The notes below the pieces were generated by a model, which saw only the letters and a list, made by a program, of their open reading frames with translations, was not told the origin of the DNA and made no database searches. Of a stretch of DNA of 24,179 bases, positions 7,332 through 24,179 are shown piece by piece. The DNA is taken from NCBI GenBank assembly GCA_005223375.1, contig RXOD01004316.1:1-24179 (forward strand). Reading direction: 5' to 3'. Source of the stretch: Amoebophrya sp. AT5.2 (Eukaryota; Sar; Dinophyceae; Syndiniales; Amoebophryaceae). Numbering within the stretch: position 1 is the stretch's first letter; each line of letters opens with the position of its first letter. A program made the translations under genes and the position numbers.

Positions 7332-8572
7332 AGCCGGACTTCTGATGTAGCGAAGGCGCGATCATCATGGCGACAGGCACCAACAACGAGCAGCAGCGAT
7401 CAGTAGCGCAGTGAGATTTGTAGATAGGCCCCGCGTTCTGACTTCTGCAAAAAGCTGTTGAACTCCATCCAGATTGTAGCGCGACAAGACTAGTATGATC
7501 GACAGAACTACGACAACGGCGTTTCTGATCAGTTACCATATTATATGCGAAACACATTGTTCTGGTGGTACCCCTAACAAACTCGTCCATCCTACTAGAT
7601 ATCCACGAGGCCAGGGCGGTGACTCTTTCCATTCCATTCCATACGACGCGTTGTCATTTCCAAGAAACTGGCGCAGAACTGAGGCTGAAGGACAAAGCTC
7701 CACTGTACAACATTCTACCAAGCTTAAATCTACGAACCGCAAATGACTACGACATCGACAAGCGACTATCGATTCACGATAAATATTGTACGACACAATT
7801 CCTTGTACACAGTCACAGACGAGGACGCGCAAGTTAGCGCTTGTGTAGCGATCCCGGGCCCCCGCAAGGCAGCCGATCAAGGCTTGGCCTTCCTTGGGTC
7901 GAAACACTTGGATGGTCGGGTATTATCGCCGCCAGCCCTCGCGATGTTGAAATTTGCAAATGAAACGCGAAACGCCCCCTCAGTTTGAATGAATCGTTAT
8001 CAAATTTGGAAATGTAAGTACCCGCGTGGTGAAGATGCCGCTGCAGCTGCAGTGTGTGCCCCCGCTCTGAATGATCGATCGTTCCCACCACGACGCCAAT
8101 GCAACGTTTTGACGATCCGCGAGTCTCGATGGCCCCTCCACCTCCGCGGCTCGTTCTATGTTCTCAAGAAAGATGTTGAAAGCACTGGCTGCCTGCAAGT
8201 AGTGCTCCGCAATGAATGTTTTTTTGCAAGGAAACCAACGTGCTCAAGCCGCCGTAGCTGCAATCCAAATCGAACTCCATGACAACTGTAACTCTTGAGT
8301 ATTATGTATGACTTGCTTCCACCGAGTCTTGATTTACGAGCATGCGCATTGCGTCTGTGTGGCACCGATGTATTATTTCGAATCTGATCATACCAGGACC
8401 AGTTGAGTTTGTGGCACGGGCAAGATCTTCAATTTGTATCGATAGCGATGCGGTGAATTATGGCAGCTGGTACCGCGACTACGACCACATACTGTTTTGA
8501 AAAATGTTACTATTTCCGTTTTCGTATTTGTTCCGCGACCACTAGCACTAGCCTATCCCAGCGCAAGCGACC
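7332..8572. other. Intergenic region between lectin and exportin genes
   Basis: No convincing coding exon or structural RNA is seen. Short ORFs on both strands (for example 7989-8282) have no domain-like content. The region should contain the lectin 3' UTR and the exportin promoter and 5' UTR. The exportin start codon at 8573 sits in ACCATGG, a strong eukaryotic start context. Confidence 0.5.
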
Positions 8573-10828
8573 ATGGCCGGTTCACAGCCTCTTCCGCAGC
8601 TTCCGTTCGATCCGGCCGTGTTGCTGGACACGAGCAGTTGGTCCGAGGAGCGGGTGCAGATGCTTGATATTCTCGTCGAGATCATGTACAGCCAATCCAC
8701 GGAAATTCTGCGGCAGATTAGCAGCGGCAACCTCCAGTTCGGCGGTAGCTCTTCGTCCTCCGCAGGGGCTTCCGGCGTCGGAGGTAATCCGAACGCGGCG
8801 CCCAGCGGCGGCCTGGGGGATCAGGTTCAGGTCGTGACTAACAAGGAGCTGAAGCAGGAAAACCAGCGCATAGTGAAGGCCGCGCACGACACCCTGCACG
8901 CGCTGAAACAGAACGGCGAGGCGTGGAAACTGGTGGACCTGATCATCGAAAAGTCCCAGAACCCGGCGAGCAAATTTTTCGCGCTGAACCTGCTCGACGT
9001 GTGCGTGAAAACGAAGTGGCGGCTGCCGGACTTGCCGCGGCCCACGATACGGAACTACGTCACCGATTTGGTGATTCGGGTTTCTTCGTCGGAGGAGGCG
9101 GTGAAGAACGAGCGGCAGTTTTTGACGAAGCTGAGCGAGGTTTTGGTGCACATCGTGCGGCAGGAGTGGCCCCAGGACTGGCAGGAGTTCATCCCCGACA
9201 TCTGCAAGGCGTCCATGCACAACCAATTTCTGTGCGAGAACAACATGCGGGTGCTGGCGATGCTTTCGGAGGACATCTTCGAGTTCGGGGACAAGCAGCT
9301 CGTGTCGAAGAAAGTACTGGAGCTGAAAACTAGCTTCGCGCACCAGTTCAAGGAGGTGTTCGACCTCTGCATGTGGGTGTTCCAGCAGTACGTGCAGCAG
9401 CCTCGCGGTACGGTGAGGCCCCAGCTCGTGCAGACCACGCTGATCACGCTCAGCAAGTTCCTGAACTGGATACCCTTCGGCTACGTGTTCGAAACCGAGC
9501 TGATCCCCATTCTGTTCAACCACTTCTGGGACCCGCCAGATTTTCGGATTGAGTGCGTCATGTGCCTGAACGAAATCTCGTGCCTCGAGGCGGTTTCGGC
9601 GGGGGGCGGGGGTGGCGGCGGGTCGCTGCTTGTTCCCGGCGGATCGTCTTCAGGAATGATCGGGGGAGCAGAGGCCGGTGCGCCGAACTACCGCCAGCAG
9701 CTGCTGGAGTGCTTCCAGGCAACGGTGATGAAGATCAACACGACGCTGCCCAACGACATCCTGGAGCGGGTCCGCGCAGGCGATCGATACTCGACGCACC
9801 TGATCCAGCAATTGACTTTGCTGGTCACCAGCTTTCTGAAGCATAACTTCGACGCGGTGGACGAAAACTTCGAGGCATTGAGCGCGGCTTTGAACTTTTT
9901 AGTGGAAGTGACGGCGGTCCCGGACGAAGAAATCTTCAAGCTCTGCGTCGAAAGCTGGGACCTAGTCGCCGGACGCCTGTATCTGCACGGGGAGCAAAGT
10001 ACTGCTTGCTACTTGGGGTCTGACTCTGAATTACAAACATAGTTGTGATAGTGCGAAAACAGGAAAATCAAGATTGTTTTGCGGGAAGTCGTTCTTCAAG
10101 TTCATCGCAAATCCACTTTCAGGTCGCAAGGCGTGGCTGATGGAGAACCTGCAGCAGGGCCACGGCGCCACCGACAGCCGTTCGCACGAGGTGATCCGCA
10201 CCGAGCTGAACGATCCCAAGCTGAAAAGGTACTCCCCGGTGCTGTCCCGCGTGCGCGAAATGCTGATCATGCGCATGGTGAAACCCCCAGAAGTGACCAT
10301 CAAGGAGAACGAGGAGGGGCACATCGTCCGTGCCGACGAGGTCGACACCGACGAAATCGCGCTGTACCGCATGATGCGCGGCATCCTCGTGTACCTGACC
10401 CACCTGAATCCCGAGAACATGGACAAGCTCATGCTCGAGAAACTAAACATAGAGTCGCGCATCGCCCAAACGGGAATCCACCCAGTCACAAACGTGCAGC
10501 TGCCCGGGCCGTGGTCACCCACGAACCTCAACAAGCTGTGCTACGCGATCGGCTCCGTGTCCGGTGCATTGAGCGAAAACCACGAAAAACGGTTTCTAGT
10601 CTCCGTCATCAAAGATTTGCTGGCACTGTGCGACGTGAAGCGGGGAAAGGAAAACAAAGCCGTGGTAGCATCGAACATCATGTACGTGGTGGGGCAATAC
10701 CCGTCATTTCTGCGTGCACACTGGCGGTTCCTAAAGACGGTGATCTACAAGCTGGTCGAATTCATGCACGAAACATTCCCGGGCGTACAGGAGATGGCCG
10801 TGGATACGTTCTTGCGGATCACACAAAA
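8573..10828 (+). CDS. XPO1: Exportin-1 (CRM1), N-terminal portion, two exons; rest of gene not in window as seen
   Basis: Exportin-1 carries leucine-rich NES cargo out of the nucleus with RanGTP. Exon 1 (8573-9998) and exon 2 (10123-10828) are joined over a 124-bp intron (GTACTG...TTCAG, phase 1), giving about 710 residues. Diagnostic stretches include [76 protein letters not shown] and [17 protein letters not shown]. The N-terminal Ran-binding HEAT region is present, with two lineage-specific inserts: Ser/Gly-rich (residues ~55-86) and Gly-rich (~343-372). The frame ends at donor GTACCT (10829, phase 2) just after RITQK, which aligns with human IAQK before Cys528. No continuing exon was found in the following 13 kb. 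The retroelement downstream may occupy this intron, or the gene may be truncated. Start ATG chosen for its ACCATGG context. Confidence 0.93.
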
Positions 10829-11186
10829 GTACCTTTTGCTTTTCTGATAGAGATAGTGGTTTCACATTCACGACTGGCTTTCAGCGCGCGAGCGCGCCGA
10901 AATCGTGGCTCAACAGTTTCATGATAAAGTAAAAATCCGCTTGTTCCTATGGCGATCTTTCCAGCTTAATTTGTAAAAACTTAAAAATTTTTTCAATAAT
11001 ATCATTCATCGCAGCATCAGGTCATCGGCACTAGGGATAAATATAAGCTGTCCGTCGTTGGCGCTCGTGTCGATAAGTATGTGCTTGGTGCTTTTCGTGA
11101 ATATCGGTTACCGACCTACACGGTTTGGAACTCACTTGTATTGCGCGGCCGCGCGTAGTTTTCGTATTCTTGACACCCGGATCCCC
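10829..11186. other. Start of exportin intron 2 / possible left flank of the retroelement
   Basis: The stretch opens with the donor GTACCT and is mostly AT-rich (for example 10970-11005). No exportin-like exon that restores the reading frame was found; the next family segment, beginning with the Cys528-containing helix, is absent. The left end of the retroelement should lie in or near here, but no terminal repeat could be paired by eye with the 3' region. Confidence 0.4.
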
Positions 11187-12229
11187 ATGACCTGGTACTC
11201 TGAGCTGAGCCCTTGGCCCCGCGACGAGTGCGAGGGCATGGAGATTTGCATCCTGCAGGGACGACGGGTACGGCCGCCCTTACTGATGGATTGTTTTCTG
11301 TCATGTAAGAGCGGTTGTTGTGTCTGGAGTATCTTGTGTTTTCCATGTATGAGAAATCGCTTCGGCGAACCCTCCACCCTCACCGTAGGGTGTGAGCCTC
11401 CGCGCTCTCTTACCTTACCACCGCCGCACCATCCGGCCCTACCCGCAAGAGCTGCCGACCATGGCCATCACTCTCTGAAGGCGAACTCCCGCCACGAGCA
11501 ACAGATGCGCAACTCACGCTTTTACCAGAACCCCACGGGGGGCACTGGCCCCGTACCAGCCTACTACTGACGCCGCAGGCAGAAGATCCACGGCATACTT
11601 GGCCACCGAGCCCCGATGTTCCACGTGTGCACCGTCACCGTTCTCCGGTTCATGCTATCATGATGAATGTAGCTGGTGCCTCGTGCTGGGAGTTATCTTG
11701 GACTTTGATCGTGAGCATCGATCGTCGTGGGCACTCGAGAAAGCCAGGGCCGAGGGTCGTGCGCAGTGTCGTGAATCGATCTTGAAAGAGCACAGCCTCC
11801 AAATGTTTTTGCCTACAAACACGCCTGCTGATGAAAAGCAGCCCTGTAGCTTGTTTTTTCTGCCGCGCATGAAACGCAGCGATGCCATTACAGCAGTCCG
11901 ACTTTGTCACTAGCGGTCCCGTTCCCTCTTGCATCGGCTATAGCATTGATTTAAGCAGAGGTTACTATCAGGCAGCCGAGCGGTGCACTTTCTCCCACTT
12001 TGATAGCCGCTACGAAGGTCATCTGCGCCGAAGGGTCATCTGCACCAAGGTAAAAGTAGACCGAAGTAACGCCTTCCACGTGCCTAAGGGCTACCACGAA
12101 GCCAAGCTACCTGACAACAACTGGCCAGAGTGGCCCGGAAATCACGATACAGCGCACTTCAATAGAGAGCACTTCGCGGGGGCGCTTGCGACGCTCCCCA
12201 GACCAGCACGGAAGCTCAAGAAAAGTTGA
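11187..12229 (+). CDS. Unrecognised protein; three-exon model, last exon best supported
   Basis: I do not recognise this protein. The terminal ORF (from about 11894 to a TGA at 12227-12229) has protein-like composition with His/Trp/Arg-rich segments such as HVPKGYHEAKLPDNNW. A possible upstream model uses ATG 11187 and exons 11187-11267, 11481-11552 and 11894-12229, with donors GTACGG and GTACCA, all phase 0, giving about 162 residues; the last acceptor is a CAGCAG tandem site. This model rests only on phase and donor similarity. Alternatively translation starts at ATG 11882. It is followed after four bases by the next ORF on the same strand. Confidence 0.3.
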
Positions 12230-12233
12230 ATAA

Positions 12234-12731
12234 ATGCCTTACTGGCAGCTCGATAGAGGGGGCATAGATAGAAATGGCTCACGTGTACTTACCCGCACCG
12301 AAGACCCCAGCTCCGTTGCGGTAAAGGGAGCCTGCGAGGGGCATTCCCTACGAGCGATCTACTTCGAAGGGTGCAGACATTGCACCCGGAATTTTACCAA
12401 AAAGCAGACAGGCTGTGAGCACTGCGCGACGGGGGACGATTTTTGGATTCCCTATGATCTGAACTATACCACTACCCTAGATAACTTCGAGGCGGAGGCG
12501 ATCCTCCAGGGCTCGGAAAACGTTCGCGTCATTCCAGGGTCGCCCTGGCAGCAAGGCACGGACAGGCAAGGCAACACCCGCTGGATCAACTACCGAGAGG
12601 CCGAAGGCTTTGTTGAAAGCAAAATCAGAAAAACTGAAGATCTCCTTCACATTCCGCGCCCCCTTAAGAGGAGCTACGCGCTAAAGCAACCGGTCCTGGT
12701 TGAGCGCCGTTGGGTCATAGGCAATGACTAA
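12234..12731 (+). CDS. Unrecognised 165-residue protein with a Cys4 zinc-ribbon-like motif
   Basis: An uninterrupted 165-codon ORF starts four bases after the previous stop (TGAATAAATG). Residues 47-64 form C-X2-C-X10-C-X2-C (GCRHC...GCEHC), a spacing typical of small zinc ribbons that bind nucleic acid or protein. The rest is Trp- and Arg-containing and looks like folded protein, for example PGSPWQQGTDRQGNTRW. No family was recognised. It overlaps the following ORF by eight bases. Together with its neighbours it may be an accessory protein of the retroelement; that role is inferred from position only. Confidence 0.5.
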   Translation: MPYWQLDRGGIDRNGSRVLTRTEDPSSVAVKGACEGHSLRAIYFEGCRHCTRNFTKKQTGCEHCATGDDFWIPYDLNYTTTLDNFEAEAILQGSENVRVIPGSPWQQGTDRQGNTRWINYREAEGFVESKIRKTEDLLHIPRPLKRSYALKQPVLVERRWVIGND

Positions 12732-12969
12732 ATCTACTTTCCTTCTCGAAATGAAAATGGGAGGCCCGGTTTTTGAGTTTGAAGTTTCGAACCGGCTGAG
12801 CCTCGAACAGATTGAAATATTTCAAGCAAAGGCACCGCATAAGCGAGAAAAAGCAAAATCTAAAGCCTTAGCCTACAATAAGGAGAGGACCTACGAAGTG
12901 GCATGTGCCCCGAGACCCTTCATAAGCGACGCCCTCAGAAAAAAGGCGCACTTGTATTACCTGGATTAA
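12724..12969 (+). CDS. Unrecognised 81-residue basic protein overlapping the previous ORF
   Basis: The ORF starts inside the end of the preceding one: the string ATGACTAA contains this start and the previous stop, an eight-base overlap with a one-base frame change. The product is small and Lys-rich (HKREKAKSKALAYNKER) and ends RKKAHLYYLD. No domain was recognised. Its start could be reached by stop-restart coupling, or the ORF could be a chance extension; the shortness keeps confidence low. Confidence 0.35.
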   Translation: MTKSTFLLEMKMGGPVFEFEVSNRLSLEQIEIFQAKAPHKREKAKSKALAYNKERTYEVACAPRPFISDALRKKAHLYYLD

Positions 12970-13052
12970 TCCACGCCGCTGGATCGTCTAGAACTACCGC
13001 TCGAGTACCAATCTCAGTTGCTAGCACTTCCCTGTTCGTTCTAGTCGGACAG

Positions 13053-14200
13053 ATGCCGTCAAGCAAGAAAGCGAACGACCTCTACGCCGAGGTCAAAGAG
13101 CAACTCAATGACTCGCGCCGCAACTACGAGTCCTACAAAACCCTCGAGGCCTATAACGGCCTGATCAAAATGCATCACGCCTGTGAGAAACTGGTGGCGG
13201 AGATGGCTGAACTGCTGCAACCCGCGCAGGGGACGAAAAACAAGATTCCCCCCCTGAAGCACAAGACAGCCCACGAGAAAGACACCCGTGGAAGGTACTA
13301 TGAAAAGGATAACGTCCGCTGATCCTATGAAGGCTTCCGCCCCGAGAAAAGTGAGCAATGTTTTTCTTTTACTTCACTACAGTGCCAGTGACAACAAGGT
13401 CGATGAGGAGCTCGCCAAGCTCAGCCGCAAGGTAGACATCCTCCTGCAGGAGAAGGACGCCCGCAACCCGAACCAGGAGAACGCCCAAGGAAGCAAGGGA
13501 ACGCACGGCCTGCCGGACGACTGGTCGCTCCGCCTGGCGTGCGGTGACATGACCCCATTGAAATACATCAACCCTGACGAGGTCGGTACAACTCCACTTT
13601 CGCATCTCCGTTTTTGAACTTACTTTACGACTACCACTTCTTGTTTCCGTCGAGTTGATGTTTCACCGATAAGGCCTTCGCTTCCCCCACTCGCAGAAGC
13701 TACGGAGCAAGGATTCCGCCTCAAGCAGCGAGGAGCCTAAAACAACTCTGGCCCGGTCTGGAATAGTACGCGAAATCTACGAGAAGCTGAAGAAGAAGGT
13801 CTCCGCTCTGATTGGGACCAGCAGTCGCGAAGAACTAGAGCAGTTTACGGAGATGGCTATGAGCGAGCAGCTGGAAGGAATGGCCTTCGACCACAGCACC
13901 CTCATCCACAAGGAGCAGCTACGGGAACAGCTAGAATTACGTCCGACAGGCTTCGTCGCCAATACGGACCGCATCACGGGCAAGAAACAGCCGACCAAAA
14001 CTAAAATGAAGGCTCAGGAGGTGGTGAAAACCCCAGGAGGAAAGGCCCTGGGTCCAGGGATATGGATCCAGGCGCCCGAAGATGGTGCCTGGCACAACGA
14101 GGCGGAACGCGAAGAGGATCCGCCGCAGCATTTTCCGGAGGATGAGGACTGCCCGTGGGAAGATGATCCCCCTTCCTTTCCATGCCGCTATGAGATGTAG
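13053..14200 (+). CDS. Unrecognised spliced element protein, about 323 residues, helical N-terminus and acidic C-terminus
   Basis: Exon 1 is 13053-13294 (ATG after GGACAG), with a helical charged start (KANDLYAEVKEQLNDSRRNY). A clear 88-bp intron (GTACTA at 13295, acceptor CTACAG ending 13382, phase 2) joins it to exon 2. The second junction has two in-frame solutions: 13586-13673 (GTACAA...ATAAG, 88 bp, phase 1, giving 323 residues) or 13582-13696 (GTCGGT...CTCGCAG, phase 0, giving 314). I prefer the first for its donor. Exon 3 ends with TAG at 14200, after a coiled-coil-like part (EIYEKLKKKVSALIG) and an acidic, Trp/Pro-rich tail (EDCPWEDDPPSFP). The product could be a structural or assembly protein of the element, but no homologue is recognised. 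Confidence 0.55.
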
Positions 14201-14587
14201 AAGCACGGCATCCAGATGATCAAAAACTGTATTTTACTTTGGAAAAGAAAAAGGCGCCGCCAGACACCGCGAAGCATCAGCTGGTGCACACGTAAGAACG
14301 TGATGCACCATGAGTCTTGTCGTCGCGCGACATTGTAGATGAGCTCCAATACAGAAAGTACTGTCCCTGAGAGTGTTTCGTGGAATGAGTGCGGGCACTT
14401 GAGGGCTCCCTTCGTCTGAAGGCTTCGTGGGCAGTCGTGCAGGGTATCGCCCGGCTTAGCTCTCGTATAGAAACGCCCTTTGCGGTCCCTCAAAAATGAC
14501 CAAAAAGCTCTACAATCACCTGCAACAAACTTCACCTTGAAAGTGTTTCTATTGTTTTGCACCTGACTCCATGTGAGCGCGCGAATC
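14201..14587. other. Non-coding gap between two element genes, with a hairpin
   Basis: No plausible coding sequence on the + strand. The gap holds a strong hairpin at 14282-14310 and, just after it, the short palindrome GTCGCGCGAC. It should hold the 3' end of the upstream gene and the promoter or 5' UTR of the Gag-like gene. A 198-codon antisense ORF (14188-14784) crosses it but has no recognisable content. Confidence 0.5.
14282..14310 (+). other. Perfect-arm hairpin with one bulged base
   Basis: The arms TGGTGCA and TGCACCA continue as CACGT and ACGTG around an AAGA loop, with a single unpaired A on the 3' side. That is about 12 paired bases in 29 nt. It lies in the gap before the Gag-like gene. 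It could be an RNA structure in the element transcript or a DNA palindrome; no function can be assigned from sequence alone. Confidence 0.6.
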
Positions 14588-17500
14588 ATGGCGGATAGTA
14601 GACTCTCGCCGGGAAGGCGGCCTGATGACCAGATCGACGAGTGTCCGTACGTGCGGGACCTTTCGTTTCTTCTGAAGCGCAGCATTGTGCTCAAGGTGGA
14701 CCAAGGCTCGCTTGAGGGCAAGGCGCAGCAGTACGTGAGGCAAGCAGCCGAAAAGAAGGCTACCATCGAGAAGACACTAGACAAAATCTACAACAACACA
14801 CTGGGCCACACCGCCCTCAATGACGAAAGTCGGTTCAAGCAGTTCGAAAAACGCCTGCAGTCGAAGGACCTGCGATTCCAGGGGCACGACTCCGCGGAAG
14901 GAAAAAGAAAAATGCAAGACTTCGCGGCCGCCCTCGCCGCAGCAATGCTGGCCACCGTCAGGTTTAACGCAGCATGTAAGCAGAATGGAAAAAGAAAAAG
15001 CTTCTACTCGTTTACCCGTATTCACCTTTCCCTCACCCGCACGAAACGCACAAAAGGTACTCCCACCCCAGCGCGAAGACGCTCCTGCACGAGGAAGAAG
15101 ACGCTGGGGACTTCGTGTACCTGCTGGCAAGGCCGGGCCGAGATTTCGTCACCTACATGAGACAGGTACAAAGCTAGTTGAGGAGTCGCGTCACTCTTTC
15201 ACTACGACTTCGGCTTGGTGTCGTTGTGTATTTTGGTAACCACTCGCAGGTGATCATCATGTTACAAGTCTACGGAAAGGCGGGGTCGAAGGATTTTCGC
15301 ACCCATCCACTCGTCACCATTCTCCTCTGCAAGGACAGGCGGCTCCTCTTCCTCGAAGCAGTCCAAATTTTGATAGCCTGGACCAGATACGCGACGATCG
15401 GCGTGCTGCCTGAAACGGCGCCCGACTACGAGAGCTCGGTCATCAAGCTCGGGGAGCTGTGCCCGGTGGCGGAGTTTCTGCTGCCGCAGTCCCAAGAGCT
15501 CTTCGACTGCACGCCAGGAACGCTCAAGGAAATGAGTGACTCCTTTTGCGAAGAGAAGAAGTTGCTCATGTACCCTTTCCCGGAGGACGACTCGCAGCAG
15601 GCGGTCGAGGTGTGGACGGACCAAAACCTCTTTTTCACGCTGCCCAGCAGCACGACGGCAGGAGCAGCCGCAACTGCCACCGCCGCGGCCGAGCACAAAC
15701 CCACCACAAGCAGCTCCGTTTGGAGTGAGATCTGGACAAAAGAAGGAGGAGCTCCCACGCAGGAGCGCCAGCACCAAAAAGAGCAGCTCACCCCCTCGAA
15801 GCAAAACCGCCGACCCCTTTCAGCAGGAGGGGAAGAAGCCCAGGGAGCAGCAGCGGCGAGCAAACCGCCAGCAAAGCGATCGGGATCGGCGAAAGCATCG
15901 CCCACCCGGAAGCGGAGCACGAAAAAAGACCAGGAACCGCTCCTGGAAAAGGAGGAAAAAGACCCCCCACTCCACAAAAAAGATGTGCTGGCTAAATCCA
16001 ACGCGGACGTGCTGCGCCTCAATGGAAAAGGTCTGATGCCGACCGAGTCGGTGAGGGGAAAAGGAAAAGCAGCAGCGGAACTACTGACGAAAACCACGCA
16101 GGAGCACACCCTCCAAAACTTAATTTCCGGCACGGCAAAGCAGTGCTCGGGCTTCCCGAAGCAGCAGCACGACCTCGCCGGGGCGTACTACCAGCAAAAG
16201 AAGCAGGTGGAATTTGCGCCGGAGACGGAAGAAGTCATCACGAAAGCGAGAGAGGTAGACGTCCTCGCCGAAACGGAAGAGCGACTGAAGGAGACGCTGC
16301 GGGACCTACAAGAAGCTGAGAAAGCAGCCAAGCCGCCGGCAGCCTCGCCGCCGCCGTCCCAGAAATCTGGAGGCGGAGTGCCAAAACCGCAGTCGTCACC
16401 CATTGCGGGCAGCAGCGCCCAGAGCCTTTTTGACTTGCAGGGAGAGCTCAGCCACCGCATGATGTCGCGGGCGTCTTTGCAGGAGGAAAAGCGGGAGCGC
16501 GAGGAGCGCGAGCGTGCCGAAGCGGAAAAGCAGAAATCCTACTACGAAGGCCCCTACGAACCAGACTACGACTTCACCCACCTCATGGGGGGCTCCGGCC
16601 TCGACGGAATGAGGGAGAGCAGGTTCCGCGAACCGAGAATTCCCCCGCAGGTCGAGCAGGATGAGAACCTGCGTCGTCTGCGCGAAGAAGAAATCGGCAC
16701 CCTACGGACTCGCGCGGAGGAGCTGCGCCAAAAGATCAAGGAGGCCGAGCAACGCCAAGCCCAGCGTGAAGCGGATCGCGCGGAGCGCGAGCGCCAACGC
16801 GAACGCATTGAGCAAGAGCAGCGTGACCGAGCACGCGCGCGCTTCGAGCAGCAGGAACAAAACCGCTGGACGAGAAACGGAGACACACGGATGCCGCACG
16901 GCGTCGCGCACGCAGCCGGAAACTTCTTCGACCTGATCAGCAAATTGGACGACTTCTCGTCTTCTAGAGCCAGTGCGCGAGAGGGGCTCCAACGCAGAAA
17001 GGAAAACCCCAAGAAAAAGGCGGATCCTCTGGCAGGAATGGTCTCGACAGCGAACCCAGAAGGCAAGAAGAAGCCCGAAGCGGAGATCGACAGTTACGAG
17101 CAGTGCATGGAGATCCCAGTACCCGTGGCGCACGAACTAGCCTTCAACGAGGAAGAGGCCACTCCCGCGCAAATTTGGCTCAAAGTCGCCTCCGTCCCAG
17201 ACCCGAAGAGCAAAAACTACTTCCAGAACCCGCGCCCCGCGCGAGAGATTCGTGAACTGCTCAGTAACTTCTACGTCCGCAAGTCGAAGCAGCGCAACGC
17301 GGTGGGAGATGTTATTCCGGAGCCACTCGAGCAGAAGGCCCTGCGCGCCTGCTCCTTGAAATCGGCCATCTTCTGGTTGATCGAGGAATTTGACCACGGC
17401 CGACTGGAAAACGCGACTGAAGACGTGGCCACGCTCGTGCTCACCGGTCTCATGGAGCAGGACGAGTTTGAGGACACCCTCGACAAATACGCAATTGACG

Positions 17501-18624
17501 GAAAAATCGAAAACAAGGAGTCGTCCTTGGTGGTGCCGGCGGGTCCTTCGACGCGCGCGCGAGCCTGGAAGGCGTGCCAGGCGATCGCCAGAGATGCAGC
17601 AACCCTTTCCGGCGAGCAGTGCGCAGCCCTCAAACTGCAGGACAGGAAGATCTTCTCGCAGATCCGCTCCGCACTTAGCCGCTGCCTAAAGGACGTCCGC
17701 TCCTGTTCGTACGCAAGGGGATACGATCCCACAACAGCGGCACCGGATAACTTCGAAAAGGCAATCTCGCAGTTTCGCCTCAAAGATCTTTTTGTGGTGG
17801 CGTGTTACGTTTGCGGATTCTGGAGGTCGTCGCCGGAGATGACAGCGAATCGCTTCACCACCCTCAATGGGCGCTTCCAGGTGGGAGACGGGAAGTGGTG
17901 GAAGGACATGGAGTTGAAGGACCGCCTAAAACTCCTACAAACGTTCCTCGACCGCTTAGATAACTACCCGAACAAGTCGTGCCAAGTAGACGAGCTTGAG
18001 CTAGCCTACCACCAGTGGGCATCGCTCGCGCCGGCGGTCACCAAGGGCCAGCAGGTAGCAGTGCGCGAAAGGCAGCAAAAGAAACACAAGGAAAAAGAAG
18101 AGGAAAAGAAGAAGCATCAACAGCTGACGAACACCTCCGGCAACGGCAACGGAGGCGACGGGGGCGGTGGCCAGTGGGCCAAGAACCGCTGGAACCGCTG
18201 GGACAAGAACAAGAACTGGAAGAAAAACTCCAACTGGAAAGGCAGCTGGTGGAAAGACAACAACCGGGACCGGGCCACCTCCTCGCTCACCTTTGGGACG
18301 ACCGTCCCCCCAGCCGACAAAAGAGAGGGCGACACTTCCAACACGGGAGACAAGCGCAGACGCGCGGACGACGGTACGGCTCGCCCCGGCACAGTCGAAG
18401 TTTCTTTCATCAGAGAGAAGGTGGCCCAGCTCAAGCAGGTGACGCCGGACGAAATAAAGGAGCGCAAAGACATTTGCTGCTACCATCTGGGTTTCCTCTG
18501 CGAAGTCTGCGATGACAAGGGAAATGCGGTGAAGTGTCTGTCGCGCCCCGTGTGCGCGCGGTGCAGAAAAGACAAGCACCACACCAAGACCAAAGACTAC
18601 CTAAAATCACTCAAGGATCGTTAA
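14588..18624 (+). CDS. Gag-like protein of the retroelement, about 1285 residues, spliced
   Basis: The likely role is packaging element RNA in a capsid-like particle, inferred from position 5' of RT and from nucleic-acid-binding features. Proposed exons are 14588-14961, 15057-15165 and 15250-18624 (TAA). Intron 15166-15249 (84 bp, GTACAA...CGCAG, phase 0) is well supported because it joins FVTYMRQ to VIIMLQVYGK; intron 14962-15056 (GTTTAA...AAAAG, phase 2) is less sure. The order is: helical N-terminus; Ala/Pro/Lys-rich low-complexity region (about 295-440); Arg/Glu-rich coiled coil (about 568-702); a folded-looking region (about 770-1080); Lys/Glu stretch; W/N/K/G-rich patch (about 1132-1170, KNRWNRWDKNKNWKK); and a C-terminal Cys/His cluster CC-X6-C-X2-C-X8-C-X5-C-X2-C-X4-HH (about 1235-1265). 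It is much longer than usual Gag proteins. No direct family match was recognised. Confidence 0.65.
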
Positions 18625-19393
18625 CTTACCTTCTCTCCCTACGAGGCCGCGCCGTCGCTTCCAATTTCGAATAACAGTAGTTACTACAACGCACTGGGGA
18701 GCGCTGTCCTGCCGCCCCCTATGTCAGAGCCTACCTTCACTTTTGTTTTTTGAATTTCTTGGCCCTCCAAGAAAATAGTCACTACTTCGGAGAAGTCTTT
18801 TGAAAAATATATATTTATTTAAAATAATGCCGGGCAGTGAAGACCCGATGAAAGAAGCGCCAGCGACGGCGCGACTATCCAAAAAAGCCTCCTGCGCTGC
18901 AGATAGCAGAGGCGCGTAAAGCGGATTGACTCCGCGTCACCACTGGAACCGAAAACGAGAGCAGAAGAGCCTCGCACGAAGCTCCGCAAGTCCGGGCAGA
19001 ACCCGGCTTTTACTAGCAGTCGTACACTGAAAACAAATTTAAAATCTACTTTTAGTTCTTCATGAAAACCCCACTCAAGCAGCCCGCAAGAAAAGAGGCG
19101 ACTCACCAGACGCCGCCGGCTACGATCGCGCAGCAGGCGCCAAGGCATTATCGGTGCGCTTACTTCTCGTGGTACGCCGCGTGAGCGCATCTCTCCATTC
19201 GGACTCCCGTTGTCGTGACCCTCGTATCGTGAGCTTCTCGGTGGGCGTGGGAATGAGCATCGACCTCTCGTCTCGATCTTGGGCACCCGGGAAAGGGATG
19301 CGTGCCTCGCGTTAAACGAAATGCTTTTTTCCTTTTTTCACCCACGCACCCTACTTTTTTCCCCACGTCGCTTCCCGCTTGATAGCTGCCACC
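18625..19393. other. Non-coding gap between Gag-like and RT genes
   Basis: No credible CDS was seen in this 769-bp gap. It contains an AT-rich tract (about 18798-18828), a small GC hairpin CCGGG-CAGAA-CCCGG at 18992-19006 followed by CTTTTA, and pyrimidine-rich runs close to the RT start (about 19320-19378). It probably combines the 3' end of the Gag-like transcript with promoter or leader sequence for the RT gene. No tRNA, ribozyme core or terminal repeat was identified. Confidence 0.45.
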
Positions 19394-22300
19394 ATGGGCA
19401 GACTGGAAGCCCACCACAAGGGGGCTTTAGATAAGCTACGAGAGAAGAATCGTCTCGAAAAATTGAAGTCCGAAGACGAAGTCTACGAAGCTGAGCGAAA
19501 GCGGCTCCGGGACTGGCTCGACGAGCAGCGGAAACGAAAGGAAACCGAGCAGGCGCTGCAAGAGCAGATGGAATACTTTGAATTCCAACGCGGCAACTGG
19601 GGCCCGCATCCGCGCAACAGGCCGGCCACTCACATCCTCAACATCTCCACGGCTTACCTCAACCATGACCAAGACTTCGGCACGGAAAGGCTTTCCCCCT
19701 TTCTGCTCAACGCATGGGCGAACGAGCTGAACTACTTAGAAGAGGACAGGCGGGAGCTGCTGTATGGCAAGAGTGGCTTCGTGAACAGGGGGTTCCCTGT
19801 CGAAGGGCCCGTGCCGCTGTATGGCGCCTGGGAGCACGCAAAGAAGCTTACGCAGCACGAAAAGCTAAGGCTCGAGGAAGCAAAGCAGGACCTCCACCAG
19901 CGGCTGACCGCGATTGACCAGCTACGAAAGCTCCGGGCAAACCCGTACGACTTCGAGGACGAGCAGGCACTGCAAGGCTGCTGGAAATCGGTGTCCACGC
20001 TCTTGGCGGGACCATGGGCCGACCCAATCCCACCCGAAGAGGTGGAAGGAAAGGCGGAATGGATTTTCCCCTACTTTGGGTGCCTTTCCTACTCATACTT
20101 ACCTCCATCTAGCTCTCCTACTTTCCGTTTTTGGTTCTTTTATTCCCGCACTTGCTATTTCGCAGTCTTATTTCGAGGTCAGGGTGATGCCCGCTTCTAC
20201 TACTTTCAATTCGTGGCGCGAATCGTTGCGACCCTATACCATTGGAGACGTCCTGGCTGCGGGTTCCCGTGGGGGTGAGCCGCTGCAGAAGTCCGGACCG
20301 GTCGGACGGCCGTGCTGGATGTCTCAGCCACTGTCCGGCTCAACGGTCTGGGTCGCTATGCCTTGGCAAAGTAGCGCGGTCTCTGCGGAGCTGGTTGGCC
20401 AGTGGATGCAGCGCGACCACTTTTTCGCTCTTATAGCTCCTTCTCCCCTCTCTCGCGAGAACTCAATCTCACCCTACTTCACTTCAGGATCGGCCAGAAG
20501 TGGGACGACTCCCTGGGACGCTGGGCCAAGATCCGGCCAATAGCGAACGAGAAGGCCAGAAATCGGTTGCGTTCGCCGATAAGCGAGCGCATGACACTCC
20601 CGGGGACCGACGTGATCGTCGACATGGTCCTCTACTCCGCGAACCCGAGCCTGGGCGAGTCCATGATGCAGAGCAAAAACGACATCACCAGCAGCATACT
20701 GCAGAACAGAAAGAAAAAAGGAGGAGGCAAGATGACGTGGAGAGACGTGACGACGTTGCCGCGCCCCCTCCCGCAGTTTGAGGGGCATAGTTTTACTCCA
20801 GTGTTTGGAAAGCTAGACTTATTTCAAGCATGCCTCCAGCTAGGGGCTTCGAACCCCGATCGGAACCTGTTCCAGCTTTACTCGCCGGAAAAACAGGAGT
20901 ACATTTACGGGAAGTCGTATGCGTTATCCTTTGGTAACATTCACTCGATCTTCGGATTTGTGGCAGCAATTTCCGAACTGATATCCAGGGTCATAAATGT
21001 ACTAATGGAAATCCCGGCAGCAGTATATGTAGATGACATCATATACGCCGCGACGCCACGCCTCCAACAGTTGTATATGGACTCGATAAGGGAAATGCTC
21101 GCAATCGCCGGAATCGCGGTTGCCCCGGAGAAGTGCGAGGTAGCCCCCATGGGCGAGCCCCTCGAGATGCTGGGTATTATCTTCCATGTGTACGAGGACA
21201 GGATCGAGGTGCACCTCTCCAACAAAAAGATCAGGATGATCTCGGGCAAAATCGATAAGGTAATCGGGAAGCTCAGGGGCCTATGTGATGATCTAGGGGA
21301 CACGAGGGCCAGCAACAAGAAGAGGCAAAAAGGGAGCGACGGCATCCCAGTGCCGGGTCGTGAAGCCGACTTCGATTTTGAGTCGCTGTGCGAGGACCTC
21401 GAAAAAATTAACGGACTCTTCATACATGCTACATTTTGGCGCAATGTAAAAAGAGGAGCACCACTCGCCAGATTCATTTACGACCTGCTTAGCAATAAGG
21501 CAGCTTTCGCCGAGCGCGTAAAGTCTGAAGGATGTCTAGAGTCGCTGAGAGTACTACTGGCCACCATGGCCGACGAGGTGCAGCTGCAGAAGCCTATGAT
21601 CCTGCGCAGAGATTTAGCTATCAGGAAGCGCCTGCATGTGATGACTGACGCGTCGGCATCTGGCACTGACGTCGCTTTCGGAGGGCTACTCTTTCGAGAG
21701 GATGGCTCGTCCATAGGCTTCTCACTACACACGACCCAGAAGCAGCTGCCAGAGAATCTGAGAAGAGCATCCATACTAGTCTACGAACTAATCGCGATCA
21801 AGATCGCGCAGGTCGTCTTCGCAGACGAGTACGCCGAAGCCTCGGTGGTGCAGCATTGTGACAATGCTGGCGCCGTCTACGGACTGGTCAAGGGTACTTT
21901 AAAATGTGGCCTAGCAACTAGCATTGTTGCCGATATTGGAAGCACCAACATGGACCGAGAAGATATCGTGTATTACGCCTACGTGAACACGCACGCAAAC
22001 CCCAGCGATGCGTGCACAAGAACAGACATGTTAGAGGAATTGGCCAAGGCGTACAACACAAAACTTACCATCTCCACGGAACAAGTAGAAGAAATCGTAC
22101 TAGAAACCGCAATGAAGTCTGTCACTGCAACCATCGAGATGCAGCTGTAGTCATGTTGTATATGTTTTGGTTTGTTTCCCATGTGTATGCGCTCTGTTGG
22201 AGCAAAACTGATGACCATACTTGTAAAAGTAGGTTTGTAAAGTCAACGGCTGGAAAACGCTCCAAGAGCTCGATGCAGATCTCGCGAAGCAAGGCAAGCA

Positions 22301-23461
22301 GAAGAAAACAGGCAATAAGTACAGTGGGGTCCTCCCGCACTTCCGCTTGGAAATCCAAGAGCACCTCAAGGAGGACCCGAAGAGGCCGAGGGCCGAAAAC
22401 ATCGTTCCCCGGGCCGTCTCGAGCAAGTGGCCCTTGACTGACGCGCAAATCATCTTCGTCTGGCCTGAGGAGTCGGCGCACTTAGGTTCGGAGAAGGGGC
22501 TGCCTGTGAGAAATTCGAAGTGGCGTGCGTGGATGTTGTACACGCTAGCCAACCTCAAGGAAACGCTCTTCGATCCGAACAGCATCAAAACAAAAGAGCA
22601 GTGCCAGGCGCTTCGAGATGGCCACCCAAAGTACTGCTTCTCGGTCCTTTGTCAATGCACAAACAGGTTCACAAATTAACCGATCCCTGATCTTCTTTTA
22701 TGTCAAGCCCAACATTCCACAGCGTGCTGTGGGCCCAGCTCCAACTTTTTGGCCAGTGGTTGTACGAAAAGGAGATCCAGACACCAAAAGCGTGCGTCGC
22801 GCTCGTCGCCCAGCGGCTACGAAGCCTGAACGCGCTGGAGCGTTTCAATCCGCAATCAGGGCACCTGCAAACCCTGACGTTTAAGGCTCTCGAAACCTAC
22901 GGCGAGAGGTTCGAGCCGTGCAGAGCAATGCCGCCCGACACAGCAAAGGTGAATCGGCTCAGCAGAAGAGAGCAAGTGCTGTTCACGATCTGGATGGCAA
23001 CAGGACTCAGAAAAGAATCAATGGCCTCGATCAGAAATGACCTAATTCAACTCGTCACGCCTGAGAAGAAATTCATGCAAGCGATAATTCCGGCGATCAA
23101 AAGTGTCCCAGTGCCGGGCGAAACGTTTTCGGTCTACTTTCCAGCGAAGCTGTACTCCGAGGGAATCTTCCCTGTAGAACCATTAGAACTGGATAAGATA
23201 GCGATGACGCTAGGAACCACCTCGCACGGAGTAAGAAGGGCGCTGGCTATCTACCTCAGAAGAAGAGCCGCGGAAGTCGGCGCGACGCCAGGCACACGAG
23301 AATACGCAATCTTTAAGAAAAGAGTATGCGACAGCTTCGCCTGGACGCAAAACTCCCTCATGTGGGAGGGCGTTTACTCACTGGATGTGATAAAATATGT
23401 GAACACGACCTTCATGGTCCACCCCGACGTGGACGCCTGGTTTACAACAGAGCTTTATTAG
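19394..23461 (+). CDS. Reverse transcriptase-RNase H-tyrosine recombinase polyprotein, about 1216 residues, five exons (joining inferred)
   Basis: The start ATG sits in GCCACCATGG. Proposed exons: 19394-20079, 20183-20401, 20488-22096, 22233-22630 and 22723-23461 (TAG). The order is a charged coiled-coil N-terminus; RT with KLDLFQACL (motif A), YALSFGNIHS (B) and YVDD (21026-21037); RNase H with TDASASG, YELIAIK, CDNAG and NPSDACTR; then a tyrosine recombinase with R (23009), HGVR (23225), W (23342) and Tyr (23375). The last intron (22631-22722, GTACTG...CACAG) is firm. Intron 22097-22232 (GTACTA...AGTAG, phase 0) removes an in-frame TAG at 22148 and is needed because the recombinase frame has no upstream ATG. 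The first intron has another in-frame solution (20042-20165), and donor GTGGAT at 20402 is uncertain. RT/RNase H and recombinase could instead be two proteins. All listed catalytic positions are present, so the enzymes look intact. Confidence 0.8.
22097..22232 (+). other. Candidate intron joining RNase H to the tyrosine recombinase
   Basis: It begins GTACTA, the donor seen in several other introns here, and ends AAAGTAG; both sides are phase 0. It contains the TAG (22148-22150) that would otherwise end the RT/RNase H frame. Downstream, the recombinase frame is open from 22233 (an in-frame TAG lies at 22230) but has no ATG until about 22530, inside the domain. The pyrimidine tract before the acceptor is weak, which limits confidence. 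Confidence 0.5.
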
Positions 23462-24179
23462 CCAAAGTTTGTTCTCCATGACGCAAACCGAACTGTACTT
23501 AGACGCGCAGAAACATGTGCAATACACTTTTGGTATTTGGAAGCAGAGGCGGATCCGCAAAAACCCGTCGTCCCTGCAGGCTGATGTTTCCGAGAACCAA
23601 ATCTTTCATCTTTCACCTGTGCGCGAACAAGAAAAGACCACATGAAAAGTTGTATGACCGCGGGCAGGGTCAAGTTCTTGCCCGAAAAATGTTTCCCCGA
23701 AATCGTATGTCTGGCACGCCGATCCTCACAAGATCCCAACCCACAAGCCTCTCGGTATAGATCCTTCTGGCTCGCGATACAAACTGGCAACGAGATCGGC
23801 ACCTGTCGAAGCCCTACGCTAAGCCTACGACATGTGACAGACTGGCGACCTCTCTTATGCCAGTTCTTGTGGACTTCTACTCCGCTACTGCTGCCGCGCA
23901 GCTTCGGACAGGACGACTCTGACGACGGACATGCACTATCGGTACGACGTGTATGCCGCCTTTCATCGTCCTCCCGGGGCGCGCTTTGCCAACTGATAGC
24001 GGGTTACTGTGTGTACCCGATCATATTGACAATACACAACTACACCGAGCGCCTTGACGGGCCGTTATATTTATCAGGCGGATTGGTTTGGATTGGTTTT
24101 GGTTTGCTTGTTATTACCTGTTGTTATTTGGCCTTACTTTATTTGGTTTATCTTATTGGTTAAGCTAGTTCTCTCGCGG
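23462..24179. other. Region 3' of the tyrosine recombinase; possible element terminus
   Basis: Two modest ORFs occur: ATG 23478 to TGA 23645 (55 codons, start MTQTELYLDAQK) and 23642-24163 (173 codons, ending in a hydrophobic stretch made from T/G-rich repeats such as GGATTGGTTTGGATTGG near 24078-24100). Neither resembles a known protein. The region is where a 3' UTR and right terminal repeat of a DIRS-like element would be expected, but no matching copy was found by eye near the left side or elsewhere in the window. The flanking host sequence is not recognisable. Confidence 0.4.

Follow-up and report, generated by a model that had tools for sequence, protein, structure and literature searches.

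How a retrotransposon can keep spliceosomal introns is the question raised by contig RXOD01004316.1 of Amoebophrya sp. AT5.2 (Syndiniales; assembly GCA_005223375.1), whose 24,179 nucleotides are the window analysed here. Retroelements are expected to lose introns. The window holds a single element of about 13.05 kb (approximately 11028-24074) that encodes, from 5' to 3', three small open reading frames (ORFs), a spliced ORF (g1), a Gag-like gene, a reverse transcriptase (RT)-RNase H gene (pol) and a tyrosine recombinase (YR) gene. A preliminary description had proposed a multi-gene YR retrotransposon with spliceosomal introns, and the comparison of copies, the termini and the predicted fold of the YR now back this proposal; the limits given then (13053-23461) were too narrow and are replaced by those set by termini and homology. 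Our preferred reading, to which we assign a probability of about 0.72, is that of a large (~11-13 kb) YR retrotransposon with split repeats, whose unspliced RNA is the usual template for reverse transcription and whose spliced RNA is copied occasionally. Intron gain, long retention and exact absence can be followed here on a resolved tree of one family in one genome, and the choice between spliced and unspliced template would be readable from DNA.

Introns across the copies of the element

Protein searches of the 50.7-Mb assembly (2759 contigs) gave at least 83 matches to the RT, at least 56 to the YR and at least 43 to the Gag-like protein, counted as matched stretches and thus lower bounds; for the most part the three lie together on a contig, arranged as gag-RT-YR. 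Thirty-three diverged copies with both RT and YR were compared. They are named by contig, C520 being the window and the other C-numbers contigs of the same assembly. A search of 5.8 billion proteins with an RT profile returned six relatives; it relied on a shared-word prefilter that left 7998 candidates for scoring, and a narrow distribution of the family is therefore unproved. Two relatives are identical to copies in the assembly (P0002 to C494, P0003 to C478), two match copies partially at 99-100% identity (P0004 to C2453, P0023 to C1129), P0024 is a EukProt model not traced to a contig, and P0001 is a metagenome protein. Four weak matches in IMG/VR were judged unrelated, and Rfam searches gave no match.

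The pol gene (19394-22150, forward strand, 782 aa) comprises a conserved N-terminal region, the RT with its YVDD motif and RNase H, and was aligned with splicing in the 33 copies. RVT_1 was matched in 11 of 12 members, the window's own score lying under the curated cut-off. Pfam gave no RNase H match in pol; the alignment contains, besides VYxDD, the motifs TDAS, YEL, HCDN and NxxDAxTR, which we take to be those of RNase H. The gene evolves under strong purifying selection, with dN/dS of 0.07-0.09 in five usable pairs of ten, among which synonymous sites are at or near saturation except in C2059-C1454 and C96-C2087. The pairs set aside were either frameshifted (C324-C1027, C835-C13 and C494-C1010) or synonymous-saturated (C520-C1129 and C439-C223). 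As described before, the RT-RNase H part (20375-22150) and the last YR exon (in the ORF 22691-23461) lie on one strand behind the Gag-like gene; the first exon of pol had been missed together with the 408-nt intron that joins the ORF from 19394 to the RT (intron P, 20080-20487, forward strand, GTGCCT..CTTCAG, phase 2).

Introns were called with a custom program by spliced alignment of the DNA of each copy to the proteins of intron-free copies. Further copies had been expected to tell whether the introns of the window are kept, and only some copies keep them. Of the 32 copies in which it can be assessed, 13 have intron P, always at one site and in one phase, with lengths of 85-408 nt and GT..AG ends (in C324 it happens to be in frame); C169, in which the start of pol is not covered, stands outside this count. 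The other 19 copies read straight through the site, and in the alignments displayed not a nucleotide of the intron is left or lost in excess. In the YR gene, intron X (22631-22722, forward strand, 92 nt, GTACTGCT..CCACAG, phase 2), correctly proposed from the window alone, is present in five of 33 copies, all of one clade, and absent from 28. A further YR intron, Y, is clean in three copies and less clear in C169 and C13, and a further pol intron, Q, is found in three copies, in one of them in frame. In total, one or more required GT-AG introns were found in the pol or YR genes of 18 of the 33 copies, with weaker calls in C324, C1878, C169 and C2236.

The 1285-aa Gag-like gene (14588-18624 on the forward strand, with exons at 14588-14961, 15057-15165 and 15250-18624 including the stop), whose length had been given correctly, has a Cys/His-rich C-terminus, and pieces of it were aligned from 15 copies. 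Its introns were compared in C520, C363 and C1129. Intron 1 (14962-15056, forward strand, 95 nt), overlooked previously, lies at the same site in all three copies. Intron 2 (15166-15249, forward strand, 84 nt) had been recognized, and is present in C520 only, the reading being seamless in the other two.

GT..AG ends fit 24 of the 25 required introns, whereas each of the 63 other dinucleotide pairs fits 0.38 on average and 3 at most; this control allows a score loss of up to 4 and is not fully independent, since GT-AG had been given a lower cost in the calls themselves. That an insertion is needed, as a stop or a frame change shows, is independent of the splice motif, and the sole required intron called without GT-AG is Y in C169. 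As a class the introns are not due to chance, which their presence and absence between copies supports. According to the part of PMC7789003 that deals with introns, those of Amoebophrya A25 and A120 are mostly non-canonical and those of AT5 are 99.98% GT-AG; the element's introns are GT-AG.

On the pol tree (34 rows in a quick and 33 in a careful reconstruction, the latter without the long-branched C2236), introns X, Y and Q and the form of the YR start require one change each, and P requires four. In the simplest history, P would have been gained once, in the ancestor of a clade of 21 rows, and lost three times, in C439-C223, C162-C478 and C253-C928-C801. C439 and C223 lie inside the P-bearing clade with support of 100/99, so that one exact loss is left in each most parsimonious drawing found. 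Trees holding P copies together were rejected by the approximately unbiased test, with p 1e-72 for all of them with P0001 and p 8e-7 for seven near C439-C223; the groups were named after seeing the tree, and the first, of 14 rows, includes P0001, to which no P state is assigned.

The alternative that P was gained repeatedly at one favourable site, instead of once with later losses, appears unlikely. Four changes would also result from independent gains in the C520 clade, in C550 and in the C126-C324 group plus one loss; MRG|intron|G is a frequent exon context in a set of 27 introns, and passages of PMC7789003 report that Amoebophrya genomes carry spreading introners. Against this stand the identical site and phase in 13 copies and the position of C439 and C223, which leaves one exact loss even in such drawings, although the test speaks only mildly against the closest nearby grouping that would avoid it, with C2183, C324 and C1027 together (p 0.027).

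Termini, split repeats and the recombinase

The left terminus of the window copy (A1, 11028-11150) starts with CTAGGGAT, followed by the half-site AAATATA at 11039; its first base and inner limit are deduced. This half-site is the reverse complement of TATATTT (24066-24072), which opens the right terminus (B, 24066-24074) and is followed by AT and flank. C363 carries the same half-site pair, with the same left terminus at 7551 and an equal right terminus at 20983. Homology to C363 stops at 24074, and the tblastx homology sets in at 11119 against C1129 and around 11156-11159 against C363. A 21-nt inverted repeat (95%) lies near both ends of the element, at 11249-11269 and 23563-23583.

Just behind the YR gene, 19 of 34 contigs carry a direct repeat (B1/B2) whose units measure 214-329 bp and are 97.8-100% identical; several of the remaining 15 have less than 1 kb of sequence there. 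Contigs C550, C347, C1454, C835, C1878 and others stop less than about 1 kb behind YR, as would be expected if identical terminal repeats break the assembly. The complete arrangement A1...B1-A2-B2 was found in C324 and C1027, with element lengths of 10,950 and 11,407 bp and with A1 and A2 identical at 100% over 124 bp and at 98.5% over 130 bp, respectively. Judged by the repeats of these two copies, and not by the copy in the window, the layout is of the Ngaro/PAT/SymbioDIRS type. The flanks at the B2 ends differ between copies.

The B1/A2 junction is palindromic. Arms of 7 nt match fully in 14 of 18 copies, compared with 8 of 900 control centres (C801, whose repeat runs to the contig end, was left out), and the arms covary among copies, e.g. 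GATATTT/AAATATC, GATATTC/GAATATC and TATGTTC/GAACATA, with AAATAAA/TTTATTT in C2221. The junction resembles a YR site, and the covarying palindromes would represent many natural recombinase-site pairs.

The YR gene (22233-23461, forward strand, 378 aa joined) consists of exons 22233-22630 and 22723-23461. Its residues R107, H179, R182, W225 and Y229 (numbering of the 256-aa last ORF) form the tyrosine-recombinase pattern R, HxxR, W and Y, which is conserved across 25 copies, with Y in at least 90%. An AlphaFold model (pLDDT 86) gave Cre and XerH as best VIA matches and matched other YRs as well, and by this predicted fold the product is probably a tyrosine recombinase. Weak Pfam matches of the YR were regarded as unrelated, the best being Helicase_C_4 (0.0018, in 7 of 25). 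PF00589 was matched at 28 places in the genome, none of them on the copies studied here; 20 places above the cut-off are other tyrosine recombinases, all off the contigs of these copies. C2694 and C2240 carry distant RT relatives together with weak Phage_integrase matches below the cut-off, and perhaps represent a second YR retrotransposon family.

The start of the YR gene takes two forms among the 32 copies compared (C2236 was left out). In 18 of 18 copies of the first form, including the window's (AG|GTT), an in-frame AG|GT opens the conserved YR reading at the same place, 27-162 nt behind pol, the window's exon 22233-22630 beginning at this 3' splice site without a start codon; an in-frame ATG upstream is absent from 17 of them. 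In the other 14 copies the YR has its own ATG. AG|GT is missing at the corresponding position in every one of these, though C801 and C162 carry it elsewhere, within 60 nt. An opening at a 3' splice site without a start codon suggests that in the 18-copy group the YR is translated from a spliced mRNA. Such an arrangement would add splicing-controlled recombinase expression to the poorly understood biology of YR retrotransposons.

Other routes to a YR product were considered. Recoding or a common frameshift from pol is unlikely, as the frame offset varies between the copies read. The dinoflagellate spliced leader has 18 exact and 15 one-mismatch matches in the genome (none for the reversed control), which agrees with a host of the dinoflagellate lineage; as a YR start it was rejected, since reading it in frame gives a stop and no AUG. 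The EukProt models P0023 and P0004 fuse pol to YR and are predictions only.

The template of reverse transcription

In the preferred reading, the element would be transcribed and its unspliced RNA would be the usual template for its own RT-RNase H. Reverse transcription would produce a DNA circle with the palindromic B/A junction, which the YR would insert without a strictly defined target. Gag, Pol and, in the lineage of the window, YR would be translated from the same transcript after splicing, and the occasional copying of spliced RNA would make introns disappear exactly. We infer the RNA forms, the circle, the insertion step and the YR mRNA from what is read in the DNA, i.e. gene order, copies, intron presence and absence, termini, palindrome, near-identical repeats and nested exact absences.

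Two observations bear on the template. Firstly, B1 and B2 are 98.6-100% identical in eight of the 13 carriers of intron P (C324, C1027, C2453, C336, C494, C1010, C230 and C2183). By the logic applied to long terminal repeats (LTRs), this points to recent replication with introns in place, and recent intron-bearing copies suggest in turn that copying normally starts from unspliced RNA, or at least from some unspliced template; introns would survive many rounds of copying because of this. Secondly, P is missing exactly in nested lineages, which suggests that reverse transcription now and then uses spliced RNA. The preliminary description had reasoned that full-length unspliced RNA must be the template or that the element moves mostly as DNA through its recombinase. 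The intron-bearing copies with near-identical repeats agree with an unspliced template, whereas the exact absences of P argue against movement as DNA alone and suggest that copying of spliced RNA has to be added.

Intron retention could also be accounted for by an antisense transcript, which would serve as template without being processed by the spliceosome; antisense or unspliced templates are discussed for Penelope-like elements in a section of PMC3846280. The exact absence of introns is not explained by such a template alone, and we consider it improbable. Very doubtful is a mainly DNA-based movement, in which the YR would excise and reinsert a circle and introns would never be exposed to splicing before copying. 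A YR and a palindromic junction site are indeed present and the introns persist for long times; yet strong purifying selection acts on the RT-RNase H, the near-identity of the split repeats would not be renewed by cut-and-paste alone, and exact absences in nested lineages are hard to obtain without an RNA step. Gene clusters that are immobile, possibly domesticated, and have spread through segmental duplication could be diverged, often intact and of low dN/dS as these copies are, but can hardly be reconciled with split-repeat termini, different flanks at the B2 ends and repeats that are 98-100% identical within copies whose proteins lie far apart.

Several points weigh against an RNA-copied element with mostly unspliced templates. 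Both the splicing and the form of the template are deduced from DNA, and the four changes of P may also reflect the parallel gains with one loss described above. The repeats were measured in eight of the 13 P carriers, the window copy being among the other five, and gene conversion could keep B1 and B2 alike. A1 was found in two of the six copies whose 5' flank was fetched (C324 and C1027); C494 begins inside A1 with a 23-bp remnant, and no A1 was seen in the flanks of C928, C801 and C336. In C520 and C363, B is followed directly by flank without A2-B2, which may result from assembly collapse of identical repeats or from a real deletion; the window contig ends about 105 bp after B. By sequence the YR has no convincing Pfam or PDB family match, and hhalign against lambda Int and Cre gave none. 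One copy with the AG|GT opening, C96, has an in-frame ATG upstream, and no upstream exon of the YR gene was found in pol, in the gag-pol spacer or with a donor matrix: along pol, no phase-0 GT is common to the AG|GT-type copies and absent from the rest (26 copies without frameshift), the spacers of C520, C363 and C1129 hold no conserved ORF, and a matrix of 27 donors gave no consistent strong donor.

Known systems, the conserved stretch and neighbouring features

In retroviruses, unspliced RNA is the genome and a spliced subgenomic RNA serves a downstream gene. The element would by analogy share both the unspliced genome and the spliced RNA for a downstream gene, with a YR in place of Env; no LTR pair was seen in the window and no DDE integrase family matched the pieces scanned. 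Intron P contains a stretch of about 225 nt (20206-20429, forward strand), non-coding by its stops and indels, that is 88% identical in C363 and 81% in C1129, whereas in these copies intron X reaches only 46-52% and synonymous sites are saturated. Splicing would remove the stretch, and it could therefore mark unspliced RNA. A regulated scheme of the retroviral kind, in which the genome is the unspliced RNA, the recombinase comes from a spliced subgenomic RNA, the stretch marks the template and exact intron absences are escapes, is tentative and somewhat unlikely. Folding is no better than that of shuffled sequences (z -1.05), and in a three-sequence comparison four of 70 pairs are compensatory and five broken; an RNA structure is thus not supported. 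The stretch recurs at three further genome places (C2502:3499-3721, C2412:6739-6955 and C2646:6691-6859), and its ends, judged by eye, are short inverted repeats (GTGGCGCG...CGCGACCAC); it may hence be a small mobile insert resembling a miniature inverted-repeat transposable element.

In DIRS1 proper, the terminal repeats are inverted and an internal complementary region is present. In contrast, the terminal repeats of C324 and C1027 are direct, and inversion is confined to the short half-site. Penelope-like elements containing introns were reportedly described by Arkhipova and colleagues in 2003. They resemble the present element in keeping spliceosomal introns, the property to which the discussion of templates in PMC3846280 relates. 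They differ in having a GIY-YIG endonuclease and another RT type, whereas the present element has a YR and split repeats, and sister copies of it lack introns exactly. No Pfam match to GIY-YIG was found in nine window pieces and the RT and YR alignments, a scan outside of which lie ORFs 0a and 0c and parts of g1.

A dinoflagellate host lineage is shared with SymbioDIRS, DIRS-like retrotransposons of Symbiodinium, for which de Mendoza et al. (2018; PMC5890265) give the layout A-coding-B-A-B, an RT poorly fitting Pfam, a separate YR ORF and old co-existing lineages, all as in the present dinoflagellate element. The latter differs by introns in gag, pol and YR and by extra 5' ORFs. More than 90% of SymbioDIRS-linked DNA methyltransferases are in intronless genes (PMC5890265), and no DNA methyltransferase family matched the window pieces, RT and YR scanned here. 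Ngaro elements of Cafeteria burkhardae, as outlined in part of PMC8547959, have the layout A1-[ORFs]-B1A2B2 and Gag-like, RT-RNase H and YR ORFs in equal order; they measure about 6 kb, compared with 11-13 kb here, and their YR matches PF00589, which the present YR does not. The unusual size and gene content noted earlier hold in this comparison, including the extra 5' ORFs. The intron statements in that part of PMC8547959 concern other than Ngaro ORFs. Literature searches in a library without subscription papers, and passages of PMC3266345, PMC3783388, PMC5718144, PMC8226300, PMC2632668 and PMC12477816, gave no description of introns in YR retrotransposons, and earlier mentions may exist.

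Ahead of the RT, the Gag-like gene and spliced ORF g1 had been recognized; the small 5' ORFs, like the first exon of pol, are further parts. ORF 0a (11882-12229) has amino acid identities of 68% to C363 and 53% to C1129; in C363 it appears partly duplicated in tandem (8361-8705 and 8767-8982). ORF 0b (12234-12731, 165 aa; 47% and 41%, respectively) seems element-specific: it has no Pfam match, and each of its four genome matches lies on a contig that also holds the RT and YR of this family. ORF 0c (12724-12969, 81 aa) shares its first 8 nt with the end of 0b and matches C363 at 50% and C1129 at 46% (12805-12942). Spliced ORF g1 (13053-14200) has a first exon at 13053-13294 and an intron at 13295-13382, whose proposed clean joining of frames holds in that the joined reading stays open, this junction being without a comparison copy; later exons are uncertain up to 14200. 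Identity to C363 is 41% in exon 1 and 33% in the last exon. All four ORFs are on the forward strand.

Next to the element lies an exportin-1-like host gene (approximately 8573-10844), 99-100% identical to a EukProt gene model, so that this assembly or a very close one is represented in EukProt; its next-best relatives beyond that model reach 30-48% identity in a protein search. Positions 1007-1340 of the window hold an array of short tandem repeats spaced by 57 and 82-86 nt.

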